Below, piece after piece: positions 1-12,100 of a stretch of DNA of 64,000 nucleotides. The number at the start of each line of letters is the position of its first letter. Positions within the stretch are counted from its first letter, which is position 1. The DNA comes from Trichosporon coremiiforme. Taxonomy: Eukaryota; Basidiomycota; Tremellomycetes; Trichosporonales; Trichosporonaceae. Both the position numbers and the translations under genes were made by a program. The notes under the pieces are model-generated. The model was not told the DNA's origin and ran no database searches. It saw only the letters and a program-made list of their open reading frames with translations. The DNA lies in NCBI GenBank assembly GCA_039545355.1, contig BCJJ01000013.1, positions 667,980-731,979 of the forward strand. The letters are read 5' to 3'.

Positions 1-3000
1 GNGCCACCCGTACTCGCCCTTTGCGATGTGGTGCATGACGCGCCGCCGGCTGAGCCGGTCCACGGCAGCCTGGTCACCGCCGGTCGACGAGACCGTGGAC
101 GCGGTGCTGCCCGCCCTCGGGCGTCCGGAAGCGACGCTGTTATCGTCGAACGGAAGCTCGCCGGCGATGAGTGCGTAGAGCACAACACCAAGCGCCCATG
201 CGTCGGTGCGTCGTCCGTCGTATAAGTTGCCCATGACGACCTCAGGCGCAGCGTACGCCTCGCTGCCGCAGCGTGTAGACAATAAAGGTGAGTCGGTCGC
301 GATGAAGCGCGACAGGCCAAAGTCCGAAAGCTTGATCAGCGGCGTGGGCAGCTGGTCCAGCGGGACGGATCCCGTTGAGGTCGCAGTCAGTTGGAACGGG
401 TTCACGGTGAACAGAATATCTGCCCTGTCAGTTGCGATAGAAGCCCACTTCAACTCACTCTCTAACTTGATGTCTCGATGCACGACTTCGACCTCATGGA
501 GCCAAGCCACTGCACGACACAGCTCGCCAAAGATGCGCCGCACGAGGCCTTCGCCCTTCGGGTCGTTCGGCCCCGGCAACAGCATGCGCTTGTGCAGGGC
601 TTGATCCTCCACCACATTGAACAGTTCGCCGCCGTTTAGCTTATCCAGAACCAAACAATGGTGCGAGTCGGTCGAGAAATGCGTGATGTAGCTCACAATG
701 CCGGGATGCACGAGATGCCGGAGCACCTCGACCTCACGACAGAACGCAATCGTAGTTCTTGAGTTGCGGGCGCAGGCGCTGCGGTCGATCATCTTGACGG
801 CAACAGCGCCAGCGTCATTGTCATCCTCACGAACGGCGGACCACACGATCGAGAATGCGCCCTCGCCGAGCGGCTCCACCAGCGTCCACTTGCCCGGGTT
901 TGACGGGACGCGGATTGGCAGCGCGGCGGTGTCGGTGCTCGGTACGAGAACGTCTCCCTCTTTCATGGGAACTGCGTCGGGGTCGTCGTGATGCGTTTCT
1001 CGCGAGATCGCAATTGGCCCGTTGCCGCGAGGGAACTGCGACTTGGGTGACGGCGGGTTTAGTAAGTCGACACGAGGATTGGTGACAGATCTGAAACCCT
1101 GAGTGTTGGTAGGGGACACAGGCGGCAAGAGGTGGTTCATGTCGAGTGCGTGGGGAGTGCCAGGGATAGTCACGACACGTGCGCGCATACTCGGCGGCAT
1201 GCCACGGCCTAACGCTGGCGTTCGAGGCGTCGCAGGAAGTGGTAAGGACGGAGGAGAAGTGGTGATCGTGGGCGAAGTGCTGCTCGCAGATGTTTTGGGC
1301 AGGGGCGATGGAGGCGTCGGTAAAACGCTCGAAGTCGACGTCGAGAAGAACGCGTCCGTCTTCGAATTGGACGCTGGCGTCGCATTTAGTGCTTTGTTTC
1401 GCACAGGCGTCGAATTTGAACCAGCCGCAGAGCCGTTGGACTCTAAACTGGACGCGACTGGCGTTCCGGAAGCGCTCCTAAGGCCTTGGAACTCTGCCCA
1501 CGAGTCGCTCGGTGCAGGCGACACTGGTCGAAACATGTTGACACCGCGGCGAAAATCCTCGAACTCGGACAGCTGCTCTCTTATAGGCGACGACGACAGA
1601 AAGCTCGCACGCGTGTCGATGGGGGAGGGGATCTCATCGAGACTCTTGAGCGACGAGTCCCTGCGGTGGGACGGTAACGGCAGGTGCATTCCTGACCCCG
1701 GGGCGCTGCCGTTCAGATCCCCACCACCGACATATCGCTTGCGTTCGGACCATGTCGGGTCGATACCGCCGTTGGAGCTCAGAGCAGAGAGCGACTCGAG
1801 TGTTAGCGTCGAGCCAATATTGCGCTTGAAGGTCTCGTAGGCTTGGGGCGAGATGGTATTTGGCAGAGGAACAGTAGTCGGGTCAAAGTTACGGCAAACG
1901 ATGAAGGCTTCCCCGCTACCTTTGCGACTACTCCTGGGCTTGCGCACCCAGACGCCGCCGCGACGCCCTACCCGGTCGTAGCCAGGCTTTCCGGCCATGT
2001 CTTCCTCGTCCTCGTCGATGTCTTGTCCGGGAGGCGGGCCGGGGAAGAATGTCGAGAGCTGCGAACGGAGGATGGCTGCTTGAGGATCAAGAGGCGACAA
2101 AAAGATCTTGAAGATGAGGGTGGCGTGAGGAGCCATTAGCGTCAACGACAATGTTAGAGCCTGGAGATGATCAGCGTTGTGCACTAAGATCCGGCACCGA
2201 GCGCCGAGCCATCGGGCGATGGGGCGCGCGCGTGCGACTGCGCGACACGCGCTACCCTGCTGCGCATCGAGCTTCGCAATCACGTACCGCCAAAATGAGC
2301 TGCGCATGGAGATGGGCGTCAAGGTCGTGGACACCGGTAACTAAGCGTCAGCTTGTCCGAAACGGGGATTGGTGCTGGCTTGAGCGTGCGATACGTACCA
2401 TCGGGGGCGCCATCGCAGACGACCAGGTCGGCCTTCCTTCCGCCAAGCGCTTCCAGGACGCGGGGGACCGTGTCCGGGCAGGTGATGTCGGTCTGCATTG
2501 TTGTGACGCCGGTTAGAGGTGCCTGCGAGATGGGTAAGTCACCCGCTAGCCGCGGCATACGCAATACGTACCATTGGCTGCAGGTCAATGGAGACGATGC
2601 GTGAGTCGGAACCAGCGCGTCCGGGCCTGTCTCCGTCAGCATACATTGAGGCTTAAGGGTTTAGGTCGAGCACGGAGCCCAGTCCAGGGAAGGCGGACAG
2701 AACATTATGTGAGGGTAGGAAGGAACGCGCGGTGCGAGGTGCGAGTCCAGCCGGAAGAAATGCGTCTGGCCGAGGAGGGCGGGACTCACTTCAGATGCGC
2801 AGCAAGTACCTGCGACCACGATCCGGGCGCGGCGCAGAGATCGACAGCGGTGTTGACGCCGGTGAACAGGTCGTACTCCTCATCTGAAGCGGGTGTCAGG
2901 ATCCAGCCAAGCTTCCAGGATTAGAACAGCTCGCATCTGACCGGACATGGCGCCGAGGACTAGCTCGGAGCGGCAACGCCCCGCACTCATGTGCTCGCCA

Positions 3001-3189
3001 TGTCCAGTACTGCAGCTGTTCGTTGCGTAGACTTACCGAGATGGAGAAGCTTGTAAGCCGACCGGGCGCGGTATCCTTGGAGCTGTGTCAATCGCAAAGA
3101 ACGAGTAAGGGAGGGCAATACTAACCGTCACTCTTTCCTTTGCGGTAGTAGACATCGCGCTTGTCCAGACTCGACTTCGAGGAAGGCAT
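1..3189 (-). CDS. FtsJ/Trm7-type tRNA 2'-O-methyltransferase fused in frame to a Ser/Thr protein kinase (3' end beyond window)
   Basis: Exons, transcript order: 3189-3126, 3075-3037, 2883-2790, 2626-2572, 2522-2399, 2340-2288, 2160-459, 419-<1 (about 850 codons visible). Residues 1-230 are an FtsJ methyltransferase: KRDVYYRK start, [20 protein letters not shown] loop, CDGAPD, LIFKIF and KPRSSR, giving the family tetrad K30-D121-K161-E227. Trm7 methylates the tRNA anticodon loop. The same exon then runs, with no stop, through a Ser/Pro-rich linker (about 250-565) into a kinase: Gly loop GEGAFS, VAVK lysine near 599, HRDIKLEN near 704, DFG near 743, APE and DAWALG. A 39-nt intron (420-458) must be removed to restore HRDIKLENIL; it is open in frame. 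The kinase looks CAMK-like; its C-lobe is cut by the window edge. Each domain is clear; the fusion is an inference from the uninterrupted frame. A promoter hidden in the linker is the alternative. Confidence 0.8.
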
Positions 3190-3242
3190 GGTGGAACGTG
3201 CGCCTCTCCTCCAGGCTGAGAGCTAGGTGGGGTAGCTGACGC

Positions 3243-3290
3243 GGAAGTGCTGGGTTCGGTGGAACGGGAAGTGCTGGGTTCGGTGGAACG
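3243..3290. repeat. Tandem duplication of a 24-bp unit (2 copies)
   Basis: The unit starting GGAAGTGCTGGG occurs twice head to tail with a 24-bp period, 54 bp upstream of the start codon of the methyltransferase-kinase gene. It probably lies in that gene's 5' leader or promoter. Confidence 0.85.
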
Positions 3291-4080
3291 GTGTCGAGGA
3301 TCGAGTCGGAGGGTCGAGTCGGTGTTCAGTGTTGGGTAAAATGATTGCTAACGAAGAAATCGTGACAGTGGGCTGATCGAATCGTGCGCGCGACGGCCTC
3401 AGGCTCGGTTCCGAGCAGACGGAGGGAGGAGCGCGAGGTCGGGTTGACTGATGGCCGCGGGGGCGGGGTCGGGAGCCGGAACGATAGAGGCGGCGGGAGA
3501 AGTGAGCCGGAACGAATGAAGGGTTGCGGCAGGTGGTATGCACAAGTGCGCAACGCGAAAAGGAAGACGCAGAGATTGACAATGGAGCGCTTGTCAAACC
3601 TGGACGGAGGCGTTAATGTGAGGGAGGGCGGCGATGTGGCTGATGGCTGAAGAGGATGGGTCCTGCAGAGGAGGAAGGTTGAAGAGGGCGAGAGGCTACC
3701 TACTGCGCGCGCAAGGGCGGGGGTAGTATCGCTTACAAGGGGAGAGGGAAGGTTGAGGGCGCGAGCCGGGATCCGACGAAAAGCGGAGTCGAGTCGCAGC
3801 TGAGAGACGGGGGAGGGGGAGTGTGCGAACGGGTGAAAATGCGTGTATGACGGTTTGTGATCGAGATGTGCAGCGATCACGGATGTGTATGGGGTGTGTG
3901 GGCTGGCGCAGTCGGTGGTCTCGAGGTCATGAAAGATTGCGGCGTACCGGTTGGCCGCTGGACCAAACAACGAGCGAGCCTACGTCGGAGATCTGATTGA
4001 GGAGTCCCCACTCGCCAGGCTGGGAGGGGCTCTGCAGGCTCTAGACCTGAGGCTGGCTCACTGTAGCCACCCAGCGCGCG

Positions 4081-4110
4081 CCCAGCAGCCCAGCAGCCCA
4101 GCAGCCCAGC
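4081..4110. repeat. 9-bp tandem repeat, unit CCCAGCAGC
   Basis: About three perfect copies of CCCAGCAGC lie in the gene-free stretch. No coding context is evident. Confidence 0.8.
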
Positions 4111-4294
4111 GGCCATTCAAGTCAGGTCAAGGTTCGCAGCCTAACAGAATTAAACGTGGTCCCGTAATCCAGTGGGATCCAGTCATTATGCCGCATTCCT
4201 AATGTTCCAAGTTCCAGAAGCTAATCCAGAGAACCGCCTCGATTACGCAGCCAACGTCCAATCACTTAATCCCGTGCGAGACATCCGAAACACT

Positions 4295-4340
4295 CAGGAC
4301 AGCCAGGACAGCCAGGACAGCCAGGACATGCAGGACACAG
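4295..4340. repeat. 9-bp tandem repeat, unit CAGGACAGC
   Basis: Three perfect copies of CAGGACAGC are followed by two diverged ones (CAGGACATG, CAGGACACA). It is a minisatellite-like tract in intergenic DNA. Confidence 0.8.
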
Positions 4341-4852
4341 GATGCAGGACAATCCGAACACCCGCGATTACCTCTCACACTTCTGGCTCCAGTCTCTCAA
4401 TACACTCCATTCGACAAGGTTGGCAACCACGAGGCGCACGAGGCGACAGATAACAAACGTTGCTCCGTCATCACGTCACACTCGATCACCTCCGATCGCG
4501 TCTTCAACTCTTCGAGTCTTCAGATTATGCATGTACGCTACTACTACATGGGCACACTCGTTTGCGTTTCGCCACGGACGCTGCAGGCCGTCCGCTGAGC
4601 TAAGCTGTTTCAGATAAGGAGGTTTCTATCAACGACACAATACACACACATTGCCTGTTCGAGGCCATCGTTCGTCACCCAGTCCAGGATAGTCGCAGAG
4701 GAAAGAAGGAAAATGGGGAATCGGAAGCGGGAGAGTCAAAGTCGGAGAAGAGAAGTCGGGAAGAAGGAACAGGTGGATCACGATGCCTGAAGGATATAGA
4801 ATGATTCGAATATAGAGAGTCGATTAAGCGTGGTTGTCCAGATCGACCAGCA

Positions 4853-7800
4853 TCAGAGGAAAGGCTCCATCGCACCAGGGTGCTCGACCTCAGCGTTGAC
4901 GAAAAGCATGCCGTTGTACAGCTGTGCCGACGGGCTCATGAGAGGGATTCGCCGCGTCGCAAACTTGTCGTTCGGGTCGAAGGCACCAGGGTGCATGCCG
5001 ACTGCGTGGGCGTGCATCGCCGTCAGAGGCGAGCGACCAAGGATGTCGCCGTCACGGGGGCTGCACTCGGGGTCGGTGTCCAGAGACCGGCACCGCGTCA
5101 GCAACGGCGTCGGCTCATCTGGGTCAAAATTTTGTTCGTTTATAAAATCATGCCAGGACTGGTCCGCAAGCGCGTCGTCCGTCTGCGCCATCAACGTGAC
5201 ACCACCCGGTCCGTCGCCGAGAGCGGGTGGCGGGGCGGGGCCCTGCGGCGGCATCATCTGCGCGGACGTCCACATGTTGAGGGCAGCGTTCATGTCGCCG
5301 TCGAACGCACCGACAGCCTGTCGCTGAGCGAAGAAGGCAGCGTTCTGCTCGCGCTCCTGCTGCGCTCCCTTCTGCTGCTGCGCGAAGTAGTCCGCGTGCG
5401 TCGCCCGAGACACGTTGATAGCGTTGCCCGAGAAACCAGCCGCCGCAGGGGTCGCTCCAGAGGTGCTGCCAGGCGTAGGAGCCGACTCCACGTTCTGGGG
5501 CGTGGGAGCAGTCGGGGCTGCGGGTGTCGGCGCCTTCTCGCTCTGGGCATCCTCCTCGGCCTTTGCTCGCTTGGCCGACTTCGGGGTCTGAGCGACGGAG
5601 CTCTTACGCTTCGCCGGTCGCTTGGGAGCTGCTGTTGATGGCGTGGACGCCTCAGCCTGCGGAGTAGTAGCAGCCGCTGGTGTTCGTGGCGTCTTCTCGT
5701 CGGCGGGCGCGGGCTTTGGGGACTCGGAGACCTTGGCCTTGCGGCTCTTCGGCAGTGGTGGTGGCTTCAGGTCCTCCTGCTTGAGCGGCCGCTTGATGAG
5801 GTTGTTGAGCATCTCGGGGCTCAGAGCGTGGGCCGCCTGCTGCGGAGTGTTGGCATTGGCGTTGGCGCTCGTCGGGGCCGGGGCGTTGTTGTTGGCCGTG
5901 TTGTTGTTGCTGGCGGCAGCAATCGCGGCAGCAGCGTTCATCTGCTGTTGCTGCTGAGCTTGTTGAGCCTGCTGGTGCTGCTGTTGCTGGGCCTGCTGCT
6001 GTTGAGCCTGTTGCTGTTGCTGTTGAGCCAGCTGCTGGGCCTGTTGAGCAGCCTGGTTCTGCTGGTTGGCAGCGGCCGCCGCAGCGCGCATCGCCTCGGT
6101 CTGGTTGTGGTTGGTGAGGGACTGCATGCGCTTGCGGATGTTCGGGTCGGTCATCGCCTGCTGCAGGTGCACGGACGCCTCGTCGATAACGAGCTTGAGG
6201 CGGTTGCGGACGCCCTCGAGCTCCTTAAGCGTCAAGCAAGGCTGGTTGCTCTTCGTCTTGTTGACAGCGGCAGAGCAGATGGCGGTGAGCTGGACAAGAC
6301 CGTGACAGCGTGTTCGGTCCTCGGCAGTCTGGGCGACAACGCTGAACAGCGGGCTCCTCTGCTTGGCCTCCGTCGCAAGGCGCACAACACTCTCAAGGAC
6401 AGAGCGGTACTCGGCCTGCTGCTCCGGCGGAATCTGAACGGTCTGCTTGCGCGTATTCAGGAACGCAGCCTCGAGCTGGGCCTCCTTGTGACGAAGGTTT
6501 GCGACAACTTCCTGGAAGCTGACGGGGTGCGGGTTCGGCTGTGGCGGCTGGTTCTGCTGCGGCGTCGGCTGCTGGTTCTGCGGTGTCGGCTGCTGCTGGT
6601 TCTGCGGCGTCGGCTGGTTCTGCTGGTTCTGCGGCGTCGGCTGGTTCTGCTGGTTTTGCTGCTGCTGGTTCTGCTGGTTTTGCTGGTTCTGTTGGTTCTG
6701 CTGGTTCTGCTGAGCCTGCTGCTGCATGCTTTGAGCGTGCGCGACGCGAGCCCGCATGATGCGCTGCTGCTCCTCGGTCAGGGTCATGCCCTGGTTCTGC
6801 GCGACGGCGTTCATGAACTCCTGCGTCAAACCGTTGGGCATGTTGGGGCGGATCTGGCCTGGCTGTTGGGGGTTGGGCGGGACGTTCATCTGCTGCTGCT
6901 GGGGCTGCTGCTGCTGTGGCGGTTGCTGGGGCTGCTGAGGTTGCTGAGGTTGCTGCTGCTGCTGCGGCAGCTGCTGAGGAGCCTGCTGGGGCGTCGACTG
7001 CTGACCAGGATTCTGCTGCGGCATGAGACCCTGGGGGCGCACGGCGTTCTGCTGGACACCTGGGTTCTGTTGCTGTTGCTGCTGCTGGTTGCGCTGCCCG
7101 GCCTGCAGGTTCTGCATCCAGAGCTCTTCCAGACGGCTCAGGAACTGGTGGTACACCTCCGAGATCTGCCGCGCGATCGTGTTGGGATCAGCACCAGGCT
7201 GGTTTGACGGGAGGAAGCCGATCGCCTGAGCGGCGGTGGTCCACAGCTTGTCGATCGGCTGGCTGTCAAACTTGCGGTAACCTCCGTAGGCGAAGACGTA
7301 AGCGAACAACCGGTAGAGGTTGACCGGTTTGCCGTTCACGAGCGGGTACTGCAGATCGGGGCGCTGGTGCAGGCTGCGCAAGACACGGAGCCAGTCTTCC
7401 TCCGGGGGGAAGTTCTGCGTCGGAGCCGTCTGCTGCATGTTCCACGGTCCGCCAGCGCCCCCGACTCCACCAGCGCCCGGCTGCTGCGCATTCTGCGACA
7501 GCTGGTTCGCCATCGGGACACTCTGTCCCATGTTCGGCATCCCCTGGTTCTGCATGTTCGGAACCTGCTGGGATGGCTGCTGCAGCTGCTGAGGCTGCTG
7601 CTGCGGAGTCTGCTGCTGGGGGGGCTGCTGTTGAGGCTGAGGCGGCTGCTGCAGTTGCTGAGGCTGCTGCTGTGGTGTCTGCTGAGGAGGGACCTGCTGC
7701 TGAGGCTGCTGCTGTTGTTGAGGCTGCTGCTGCTGGGGCTGTTGCTGCTGCTGGGGCTGTTGCGGCTGCTGCTGTTGACCAGGCTGCTGCTGCTGCGGTT

Positions 7801-9104
7801 GCTGCTGCTGCTGGTTCTGGTTACCCATCTGCGACTGCTTGAGCTGGTTGATCAGATGCTGCTGCAGATGCGGCGGCAGAGGCTGGTTGCCGTTCAAACC
7901 GAAGAGGCCGGCCTGCTGAAGCTGGGCGAGGCTGCCGGCGCTTAACGCGCGCTGTCCCTGGGCGGCACGCTGCTGCTGAGCAAGAGCGAGAAGCTGGGCC
8001 TGAGTCAGGCCACTCTGTTTGATGCGGTTGGCGAAGAGCTCCCGGCGCTGAGCCTCAGTCAATGTCTGTGCGGACTGAGGTAAGCCGGGCACTTGGGCCT
8101 GTGGCTGCAGAGGGTTATTCGTCATCAACGGCGCGTTGTTGCTGTTCGGGTCGACACCTCCGAGGCTAGAGCCTCCCGCAGCGTTCTTGTTGGCGGCCTG
8201 CTGCGCAGCCTGCACCTGCTGCCTGGAATTGTAAGCGGAGGAAAGGGGATAAGCGACTTACAATCGCTGCATCGCAGCCCTCATCTCCGGGGTGCTCATG
8301 CCTCCCTTCTGGATCAAAGCGGCGTACTGGTTGATCGTTTGCGGGGGCAAGCCACTGACGTCCTGCAGAATCAGTCAGACATGTTCGACCGACGGACTTA
8401 CCTTTGCGTTGAAGAGGGCCTCGGCAGCCTTCTGTGCCGCATTCTGCTGGAGCTGGGTCGCGTTCTGTTGCTGCATCGGCTGCTGGGGCTGGACACCTGG
8501 TCGGATCTGCTGCTGGACCTGCTGCTGCTGAGCTTGCTGGAATCGTTGCTGTTGCAGTTGCTGCTGGGCGTGCTGGATCTGCTGGGCGAGGACGGCCGGA
8601 TTCGGTGTCTGTCCCCCAGCATTTGTCACGCCCGCACGGACTGCCTGCATACGAAGCTAAAGCGGTCAGTCTGCGCACTCCAGGTGCATCACTCACGAGG
8701 TCAAACTGTGACGGCGCCGAGCCCATGAGGTTGGGCGTCTGGCCCGGGTTCTGCTGTTGCTGCTGCTGTCCCATCGCTTGCTGTTGCCGTGCTCGCTGGT
8801 CGAGTTGCTGGCTGGCGTGGGACTGGAGCGAGTTGAAAGAATTCAACCAGTTGGTGGGTAGTGCGCCCCCGCCACCGGCAGCTGCACCGCCGACATTGTT
8901 CGTGTTGCCGCCGAGCGCGTTCGAGATGGCGGCGTTGCTGAGGTTGAAGCCTTGCATACCCTGCTGCTGCTGCTGGCTCTGGTCAACGCCACCGGTCATG
9001 CCGCTGAGGGCCGCCGGGTTCACGTTGCCACCGTTGTTCGGAAGCTGGTAGAGGATGGAGGGGTCGAATCCAGCATTCTGGAAAGCCTGCCCAAAATTGG
9101 ACAT
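4853..9104 (-). CDS. Gln-rich ARID-domain protein, SWI1-like subunit of SWI/SNF
   Basis: Exons: 9104-8697, 8644-8402, 8362-8262, 8222-4853; 1373 aa. The introns are 52, 39 and 39 nt. An ARID/BRIGHT DNA-binding domain lies at about residues 521-615, with landmarks VNGKPVNLYRLF, VFAYGGYRKF and IGFLP. Most of the rest is Gln/Asn/Pro low complexity, including long QQQPQ and NQQNQ tracts, then a Lys/Ser/Thr-Pro-rich part with basic KRPAKRKSS-like patches. ARID plus Gln-rich flanks in a very long protein is the signature of fungal Swi1, the ARID subunit of the SWI/SNF remodeler that helps bind chromatin. The start is the first in-frame ATG; an upstream GTG in the same frame was not used. Paralogous ARID proteins cannot be excluded. 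Confidence 0.85.
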
Positions 9105-12100
9105 GCTGGGGGATGGATGCTGGCTTGCCACCGCTGTGGGGGGATGCGGGTTGAGGATGTATCGGTCGGACGGTCGGATGGGTCGTTACAAAGTGGAAGG
9201 AATCCGCGTGGGGGGAGGGAGCTATGGGACTCGACGGACACACAAAGGCGCACAAAGTCTTTTTCCCCGGTGGGTCACTAAGCCGCCGGACGAACGGCGA
9301 TGAGGGGGCGACGAGCGAGTCAACGATTGGCGGCGGCTAGGTCGCTTGGACCCGCGCGCTGAAGAGACAGGAGGTGCCGTCGGAGGGGTGCTGTAACTCT
9401 ATCGGGGTCAGGAAGGTTGAGGAGGATGGCGGCGCGCGGAAGAGTGAAAAGCGATGACGGAAGAAGAGAGGCGATGACCTGTCGCTGACTAGGTGGTCGC
9501 GCTGGATGCTGGATGGGATGTCAGCTGGTTCTCGAGCGAGTGTGGGGAAGCGGAAGAGTGGAAGAGGATGAGTGAGATACGGGTCTGTTCGTCGAAGGGA
9601 GGGAACATGAGCTGATCTGTCCAGGCGGGAGCCAGACTGGGGGCGGCGCAGAGTCGTGTGCTGGTAGGTGCGGGTGTGCCGCCGGGGCCTTTGTCGGCTG
9701 TCGGGTGCTCGGACGCAAACGGGAACGCGGGGGCAGGCCACTCACTGTTGCTTGTGTGCAGTGTGAGTGTAGAGGGGTTGATGTGGAGACGTTGGATGGT
9801 GTCTGGAGGAGGAAAACGGATCGCGGTGAGGCCGGAGGAGGGGGACGGCAGGCAGAGAGGGGAGGGGAGGGCGGAAAGAAGGGGTGGTGTTCGGGGGTGG
9901 ATGAATGGATGGGGGAGGGCGTGAGGTGGGTGATGGGTGATGGCAGCTGGGTCGACTCTCGCATGCAGCAACAGGCAGCAGGGCCAGCAGGGCAAGCAGG
10001 GCTGCCAGGGAGCAGGCTGCAGCCTCAAGACCTGGGTAGCCAGGGCAAACGGTTTTTCTCCAGGGGCAAGGGATGCAGACGCAGGGGCACCCAGGGCCGG
10101 CAAGGGGCACGAGACCTGCGGCAGCTGCCAATGCTCATATTCATTTGGTCCCGTCACGTTTGTAACCGGCGGTACGACCATTTAGCCCAGAGCTTAATTA
10201 TGTCTATTAGTCCGACCTTATGCTCTCTTATTCAACCAGACCCTGCGACCCAACCTCGTCTTACAACATCGTAGCTTCGGCTCGTCGAGTTCCTTATGCT
10301 GGCAGATGCAGAAGGTGAGGGCAAGCAGGAGAGGACAAGGCTTAAGCCCGTCAAGCCGTCAAGCCCTCCAGCCAGCCTTAGAGCTTAAGCATGCAGAGCG
10401 GCTTCGACGAAACGGAACCCGACAGGCAGCATTGTGAACGTGCATCCTGCAGATCCAGTTGCCATCGGGCCATCAGGCCATGATGCACCACAGTCAGCTG
10501 GCGTAACGCCCCGCGTCATGCTGTCACCCACCCCCGCAGCGGCGCAGCCGGCACGCTATACCCCATGGCTGCACCCCTCCTTCCCCATGTTCGTGGCCGT
10601 CCTCGTGGCAAATTCATGTAAATGTTACGAAGCGAGCGAGTCGTCATCTGGCTTTCGGTCCGGCAAGGAGATTAAAACATAGGACACCCATCTGGCGCCA
10701 TCCTGCGTCGACTTGGGCAAACGACGTATCTCCTCTTGTCGGCTTCGGCTTCGGCCTCTAATGGGACCCTGCAGTCCAGCAGCAGTCCGGCGCTGCGGTC
10801 CGCTCACTACAGTATTCGCGCTCCACTTGCCGTGAACAACGGCCTGCAGTCAGCTGCACCGCCGGTTCGCTCCCCGTTCGCCGCTGACAGCAGACAGGAG
10901 ACCGATCCCACTGAAGCGAGGTCCAAGGAACACACTGATCAGGCCCAGCTTATTCCAATCTGTGCTCTTGTGAATTGACAAGCTTCCAGTTCAAAAATCT
11001 GCAAACGTAATCGGCGCGTAATTTCTGCCTGCAAGCTGTAGAGGTCCCATTATAGGCGGGGCCTCGTTGCAGATGCTGTCCCATTTCCTGCAGTTCCATG
11101 ATCTGGTGACCCACTCTGTTGCATCGAACCGTGTTCTTCGCCGTGAAAGACAGGCTGCACGCCGTGAGTTGGGCGCTGAGCGCTGCCCAGAGTTGGCAGC
11201 AGCACCTTCAGGACACCCTGAGGGCGTGTATCGGCCCTGGTTTAAGCTGTCGGCGGCCCTACGAAACCCAGCGTGGAACCCTGGAGGCCCTAAAAAGGCA
11301 GACCAGAAAAGAGGCGGCAGGCCAGGGCCCAGCATGGATACCCTGGGACCGGCCCATCAGGCGGGCGAATCAGAACGAAAAGACTGAACCAGTTCCAAAC
11401 CCAGGACCTCCGGGCCCTCGGGCCTGTCAGGCCTGCCTCAAGCTCTGAGCAAGCCTGAGCAAGCTTTGAGCAAGCTTCATCACGCATCGAGCCGCCGGCA
11501 GATGGTGAGAGGAAGCACTCGAGCAGAGGCAGTGGTAGCTGGGTTCCTACCCGTACCTTTCTGTGCCTGGCGTGCAGTCGTCCTGGGCGTGAATGCTGCT
11601 CGAAGGGCAGAAGACGGGGTCAGCGTTCCTGGCCTGCATTCATGAGGCAAGAGCGTGTCCGCGGAAGCTCTACTGAATGCCCTCTCAGCCCTGGGTCCCC
11701 CCCTTGGTTCACCAAACCTGGCCCAGCCAAAGCTGCGTGCAGTGGGTTGGGTTAGGTGAGTGAGTCAATCTGCTGCGGCCGCTGCCCACAGGCGCCGCAG
11801 ATATCGCTGCTGTTGCATTTCAAGACGCAAGGTACCAGAGACAGGCAAGGGCGATGGGCCTGAGGGACAAGGGGCGACTCACCCAGTCCTTCTTCCCCTC
11901 ACGCCCCGCCCTCAGCCCCCTCCTTGCTCCTTGATTGTAGTCCGACAAGATCGACCCGAACTCAAGACTTCGGGAACACGGTGTTGTGGAGCCACAAGCC
12001 GTTGATGTCACCAAGGCATGCGCTTGGCTTGTGTCCTACGCACATCTCCCGGCCTCTCAGCTGAGCCACCTGACGAGCAGCTGAGCGGTACGCTACGGTG

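Follow-up and report, generated by a model that had tools for sequence, protein, structure and literature searches.

A predicted gene joining a Trm7-type tRNA methyltransferase and a CAMK/AMPK-like protein kinase in Trichosporon coremiiforme

Introduction

Trm7 is an S-adenosylmethionine (SAM)-dependent enzyme. Together with the adapters Trm732 and Trm734, it places 2'-O-methyl groups on positions 32 and 34 of the tRNA anticodon loop. Its conservation extends from yeast to humans, in whom loss of the counterpart, FTSJ1, leads to intellectual disability. The known enzyme is small and is guided by its two adapters; the PDB chains comprise 325 residues for Trm7 and 347 residues for FTSJ1. No Trm7 partner is known to be a kinase. 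The C-terminal region of FTSJ1 binds both adapters, and its catalytic tetrad consists of Lys28, Asp116, Lys156 and Glu191 (PMC12145424). Loss of Trm7 causes poor growth in S. cerevisiae and S. pombe, and it activates general amino acid control in two yeasts, via Gcn2 in S. cerevisiae (PMC5892943).

Physical links between kinases and tRNA biology have been described in two other settings. In haloarchaea and methanogens, Kae1 and Bud32 of the KEOPS complex, which is dedicated to t6A, are fused in one frame, combining a tRNA-modification enzyme with a kinase-fold partner (PMC3426518); Bud32 is described as an atypical kinase belonging to the same complex as Kae1 (PMC3814370). A kinase in one frame with a tRNA-modifying enzyme is therefore not without precedent, but the Kae1-Bud32 fusion concerns t6A, and its catalytic families are unrelated to those described below. 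Gcn2 combines a kinase with a domain that senses tRNA (PMC13299246). Its sensor is HisRS-like and not a methyltransferase, whereas the kinase described below is CAMK-like.

The initial annotation of the locus knew of no described Trm7-kinase fusion, and this is in line with a limited search of open-licence PMC papers, in which nothing on point was among the papers listed. The main text of a C. neoformans kinome study mentions neither FtsJ nor a methyltransferase (PMC5052723), and the text of a survey of 2'-O-methyltransferases does not contain the word 'kinase', its figure being confined to architectures that make up at least 10% of a family (PMC12155479). Such a fusion may well be present, unremarked, in the protein databases of related yeasts. 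Comparison of the exon-7 protein with prokaryote and virus contig collections gave 23 and 3 pattern matches, respectively, and no confirmed relative, as expected because these collections hold prokaryotes and viruses.

Structure of the gene

The window, i.e., the whole stretch of 64,000 nucleotides that was analysed (C13:667980-731979; G+C 59.85%), contains a minus-strand gene for which the splice model joins eight exons into a single frame of 849 readable residues (Table 1). The frame encodes an FtsJ/Trm7 methyltransferase, a Ser/Pro/Thr-rich linker and a CAMK/AMPK-like kinase, in this order. The coordinates and the strand had been given correctly from the start, and the proposal that a Trm7-type methyltransferase and a kinase share one frame is borne out by the presence of both Pfam domains in one translation and by the same join in a second copy of the gene on contig C15. 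The details of the exons required more revision. All seven introns are of the GT-AG type and measure 50, 153, 163, 49, 58, 127 and 39 nt, so that the six preceding exon 7 do not correspond to the five short introns and one of 127 nt that had been annotated. The stop-free exon 7 of 1702 nt had been thought to hold a complete FtsJ domain, the linker and a kinase with HRDIKLEN and DFG. It does hold the linker and the kinase N-lobe up to HRDIKLE, but it contains the FtsJ domain only from about residue 144 onwards, the front part being encoded by exons 1-6. The 39-nt intron 7 (458-420) interrupts the kinase at HRDIKLE/N, and DFG, APE and the alpha-F Asp follow in exon 8. Window base 1 adjoins a run of at least 12,980 N (C13:655000-667979), either a gap or sequence that has been withheld, which hides the stop codon and the last part of the kinase C-lobe.

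Table 1. Positions of the features of the fusion gene in the window.
Feature	Position	Strand	Evidence
Exon 1, ATG at 3189 (21 residues)	3126..3189	-	splice model; residues 1-22 identical in C15
Exon 2 (13 residues; catalytic Lys30)	3037..3075	-	splice model and residue check
Exon 3 (12-residue SAM-binding motif)	2790..2883	-	splice model and PDB matches
Exon 4	2572..2626	-	splice model
Exon 5 (CDGAPD; catalytic Asp121)	2399..2522	-	splice model and residue check
Exon 6	2288..2340	-	splice model
Exon 7, 1702 nt: end of FtsJ (Lys161, Glu227), Trm7 tail, linker, kinase N-lobe to HRDIKLE	459..2160	-	0 gaps versus C15
Exon 8 (DFG, APE, alpha-F Asp), truncated by window edge/N run	1..419	-	splice model
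FtsJ/Trm7 methyltransferase domain, residues 23-235, introns included	1885..3073	-	PF01728; PDB 8y2o, 6jp6
Residues 256-274 (19 residues), perhaps equivalent to the adapter-binding C-terminal tail of Trm7	1768..1824	-	weak, MAFFT alignment
Ser/Pro/Thr-rich linker, about 290 residues	901..1767	-	dN/dS 0.073 over 1875-901
Protein kinase domain, 3' end incomplete	1..885	-	PF00069; CAMK/AMPK-like by PDB
TA, site of the Tc1/mariner-like insertion in C15; uninterrupted here	223..224	-	comparison with C15

The two catalytic halves

Within the 849-residue translation, the Pfam FtsJ profile matches with an E-value of 3e-41 and covers 181 of 181 profile positions. The K-D-K-E tetrad that had been noted in this domain is present as K30, D121, K161 and E227, in the same order as in FTSJ1 (PMC12145424). 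The best PDB matches of this half are human FTSJ1 (8y2o, 195 bits) and yeast Trm7 (6jp6, 184 bits), compared to 103 bits for the best Spb1 and 88 bits for mitochondrial rRNA methyltransferase 2. By these scores, the N-terminal half is a Trm7/FTSJ1-type methyltransferase, nearer to Trm7/FTSJ1 than to Spb1 or Mrm2. It shares with Trm7 and FTSJ1 the FtsJ fold, the tetrad, the SAM motif and the N-terminal DKRDVYYRK signature, and differs by about 28 residues inserted ahead of KPRSSR, by a tail that is only loosely alike and by more than 570 additional residues downstream, made up of the linker and the kinase. In a MAFFT alignment with human and yeast sequences, 11 residues of the tail after AFIVC align loosely with RNI..SLQSFDSD, and a search of the PDB with the Trm7 tail alone retrieved no Trm7 or FTSJ1 match. 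Because the stretch following the FtsJ domain aligns just loosely with the FTSJ1 tail, adapter binding may be altered in the fusion.

The Pfam Pkinase profile matches residues 569-805 with an E-value of 7.3e-45. Of its 263 positions, 2-201 are covered; the remainder, towards subdomains X-XI of the C-lobe, lies in the N run. The third Pfam match, PK_Tyr_Ser-Thr, overlaps the kinase. A G-loop starting at residue 575, VAVK, HRD, DFG, APE and an alpha-F Asp are seen, and the residues of the Lys, alpha-C Glu, HRD, DFG, APE and alpha-F Asp motifs are K599, E619, D706, D743, E770 and D783. The best PDB matches are Ssp2, SIK3, AMPK, Snf1 and similar proteins (best 60 of 2126), and by these best 60 of 2126 matches the domain is placed as a CAMK/AMPK-like Ser/Thr kinase. 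The sequence of its activation segment and alpha-F helix is common to CAMK/AMPK kinases such as S. pombe Ssp2 (3h4j), SIK, MARK and Snf1, although about 19 more residues than in Ssp2 lie between HRD...ENIL and the DFG strand. Unlike the members of the CAMK/AMPK family, the fusion kinase is attached to a methyltransferase.

A second copy in an apparent hybrid genome

The assembly comprises 42.04 Mb in 134 contigs, and C15 aligns with window positions 223-12087 at 84% identity. The FtsJ-family matches, the DUF2428 matches and many of the kinase matches occur in pairs on different contigs, a pattern that a hybrid or duplicated genome would be expected to show. As the FtsJ matches pair across contigs and C15 aligns at 84%, the genome looks like a two-subgenome hybrid, with the C15 copy as the apparent homeolog. 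Hybrid genomes have been reported in Trichosporonaceae for T. ovoides, T. coremiiforme and C. mucoides (PMC12113199 and PMC7026411), and the genome size and the G+C content of the window are in line with them. The upstream neighbour of the fusion gene (window 4853-8257, also on the minus strand) is a long open frame with a high content of Gln, Asn and Pro, and perhaps encodes a SWI1/ARID-type chromatin protein, as judged by reading its sequence. Its tblastn match in C15 is limited to the last 338 residues (96.7%), and the DNA aligns throughout.

The C15 copy encodes the same fusion in the same frame, has GT-AG borders at all seven introns and differs from the window copy by 10% of the DNA in exon 7. 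In this copy, the reading frame is lost at a TA that follows EVVMGNL (L776), the point at which one end of a repeat sets in. The kinase is interrupted by this element (L010:5511-5823, the C15 contig end), and the contig stops inside it. Sixteen matching places were obtained for the 310 bases that run to the end of the contig; 10 of them, including the position of the 310 bases themselves, are identical over the full length, and the three other repeat copies examined start at the same base after TA. One of the repeat copies (L035) has 30-bp terminal inverted repeats that match imperfectly (83%), together with a frame resembling a Tc1/mariner transposase, and the element, judged by reading, looks like a member of the Tc1/mariner-like family. 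The kinase piece downstream of the insertion point, searched for with window 3-260, was not found a second time elsewhere in the assembly.

Neither copy is assembled through to the end of the kinase. In C15, a Trm7 half that is still open stands next to a truncated kinase, so both copies need not supply a kinase half. A whole fusion protein could come from the window copy alone, the end of which lies in the N run.

The linker as coding sequence

The linker was measured as 975 nt or 325 codons (window 1875-901, residues 239-563), and Ser, Pro and Thr account for 126 of the 325 residues; it is probably disordered. It contains 16 SP/TP sites, all of which are common to C15, where one extra site is present. 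Shuffled linkers contain 11.3 such sites on average and 6% of 2000 reach 16, so the count is not clearly above what the composition of the linker provides.

When the bases of the linker DNA were shuffled singly, none of 2000 sequences of 975 nt was stop-free in frame. This and the codon pattern, compared to random placement of the substitutions, rule out an open frame that arose by chance. Of the 112 substitutions that separate the linker from C15, 89 fall on third positions, and the 21 codons of 325 with an amino acid change contrast with a mean of 72.3 and a minimum of 55 in 1000 random placements. Nei-Gojobori counts between the window copy and the C15 copy, a comparison of two copies within one genome, yield dN/dS values of 0.024 for the Trm7 part (238 codons, dS 0.31), 0.073 for the linker (325 codons, dS 0.46) and 0.018 for the kinase (window 900-250, 204 codons ending short of the insertion at 224/223, dS 0.49). 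Values this low point to strong purifying selection on each part compared. The four quarters of the linker reach 0.082, 0.057, 0.136 and 0.031. Four of its five other frames have values from 2.2 to 4.9, and reverse frame 1 has a value of 0.15; this frame was rejected as coding, since it contains four stop-bearing codons and owes its value to the third-position bias of the actual coding frame.

Exon 7 aligns with C15 without a gap event over 1702 nt (identity 0.900), compared to 13 gap events per 567 aligned nt in the 5' flank (3800-3190) and 30 per 1716 aligned nt in the partly coding region 5600-3800. Introns are 0.796-0.925 identical to C15 and three short introns are gap-free. As raw identity fails to separate exon from intron, it is the codon pattern that carries the argument. 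According to this pattern, a single coding exon spans the end of Trm7, the linker and the start of the kinase in each copy, and no intergenic stretch is hidden in between. The low dN/dS means that the linker is coding; an internal start or proteolysis would give the same signal.

Other Trm7-type genes and kinases

The genome was searched exon by exon and the best candidates were scored, a procedure that may overlook an additional Trm7 or kinase. The 12 FtsJ-family matches form four pairs, among which C13/C15 alone is Trm7-like: four matches belong to the fusion pair, two are Spb1-like, four Mrm2-like and two correspond to a generic methyltransferase. The other pairs were rejected as stand-alone Trm7 genes. 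C6/C5 is Spb1-like by reading and 31-32% identical to Trm7, while C10/C9 is Mrm2-like by reading, with 42-43% over 75-79 residues versus Trm7. C1/C25 reads as a generic SAM methyltransferase; the C1 piece gave no match to Trm7, and the C25 piece was left out. A second Trm7-type gene was thus not found among the 12 FtsJ-family matches of the assembly and, because no other was found, the fusion most likely provides the Trm7 function of the cell. A pair of DUF2428 genes of the Trm732 type is present, with four matches on C6 and C12. In the search for kinases, three of the 96 scored rows represent the two fusion copies; the best row after them reaches 36% identity (E 1.7e-17), which leaves the fusion kinase without a close paralog among the 96.

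Possible functions of the fusion and alternative explanations

The locus almost certainly represents a single fused gene. The best overall explanation, in which we have good confidence, is one nuclear gene that would give rise to a bifunctional Trm7-linker-kinase protein. The N-terminal half would serve as the Trm7 of the cell, methylating tRNA positions 32 and 34 with the Trm732 and Trm734 adapters, and the long, conserved, Ser/Pro-rich linker would tie it to the CAMK/AMPK-like Ser/Thr kinase. Both activities would remain in one polypeptide, and both domains are likely to be catalytically active. The kinase would thereby be delivered to Trm7-Trm732/Trm734 complexes, where it would most likely phosphorylate the linker and partners in the complex, and this phosphorylation could adjust methylation of the anticodon loop to cellular conditions. 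Such a coupling of methylation to signalling, or the phosphorylation of a partner, which had been suggested at the outset, is plausible. A role of the kinase at the Trm7 complex or in translation, as opposed to an action on unrelated targets, is nevertheless put forward tentatively. It is also conceivable, if unlikely, that a sole Trm7 with a built-in kinase senses or reports the status of tRNA or adapters by phosphorylation, separately from Gcn2.

The coupled model is held with reserve, and about the same weight is given to a fusion of convenience, in which neighbouring genes merged through loss of a stop and a spacer and both halves kept their old, independent jobs without cross-talk. As far as the sequence reaches, either half is complete on its own, 126 of the 325 linker residues are Ser, Pro or Thr, and the open Trm7 half next to a broken kinase in C15 suggests that Trm7 may work alone. 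However, a linker dN/dS of 0.073 and the retention of all 16 SP/TP sites seem to reflect more constraint than expected of a spacer, unless the selected linker serves the kinase alone. This uncoupled fusion is a serious possibility that falls short of being probable. A locus with two products, i.e., a fusion mRNA plus a shorter kinase starting within exon 7, for example at Met352, or a cleaved linker, appears unlikely. Met352 is in frame and common to both copies, yet the coding pattern extends through every quarter of the linker without indels or an intergenic-like stretch, and a Trm7-only protein would need a different splice, as exon 7 has no stop.

Decay of the kinase half in this genome, lost in one copy and possibly incomplete in the other, would agree with the Tc1/mariner-like insertion in C15 and with the unseen end of the window copy. 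It is nonetheless distinctly improbable, considering the kinase dN/dS of 0.018 between the copies over window 900-250 and a window copy that is open to its edge and contains all motifs. The position of the window copy beside an N run and of the C15 copy at a contig end could also hint at two separate genes that were joined by a sequencing, assembly or gene-model error. A sequence error as the source of the joining frame had been named in the initial annotation among the results that would overturn the fusion, and it is excluded by the C15 copy: two copies that are 10% apart in exon 7 keep the same frame without indels or stops. Any joining error is thereby refuted unless both copies were mis-assembled alike, and its probability is minimal.

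Significance

A lineage whose only recognisable Trm7 is welded to a kinase suggests that direct kinase control of anticodon-loop methylation is possible, and one gene accompanied by a natural copy with a broken kinase offers a handle for testing such control. If the less likely role of sensing or reporting tRNA or adapter status were true, tRNA modification would be wired to signalling separately from Gcn2.
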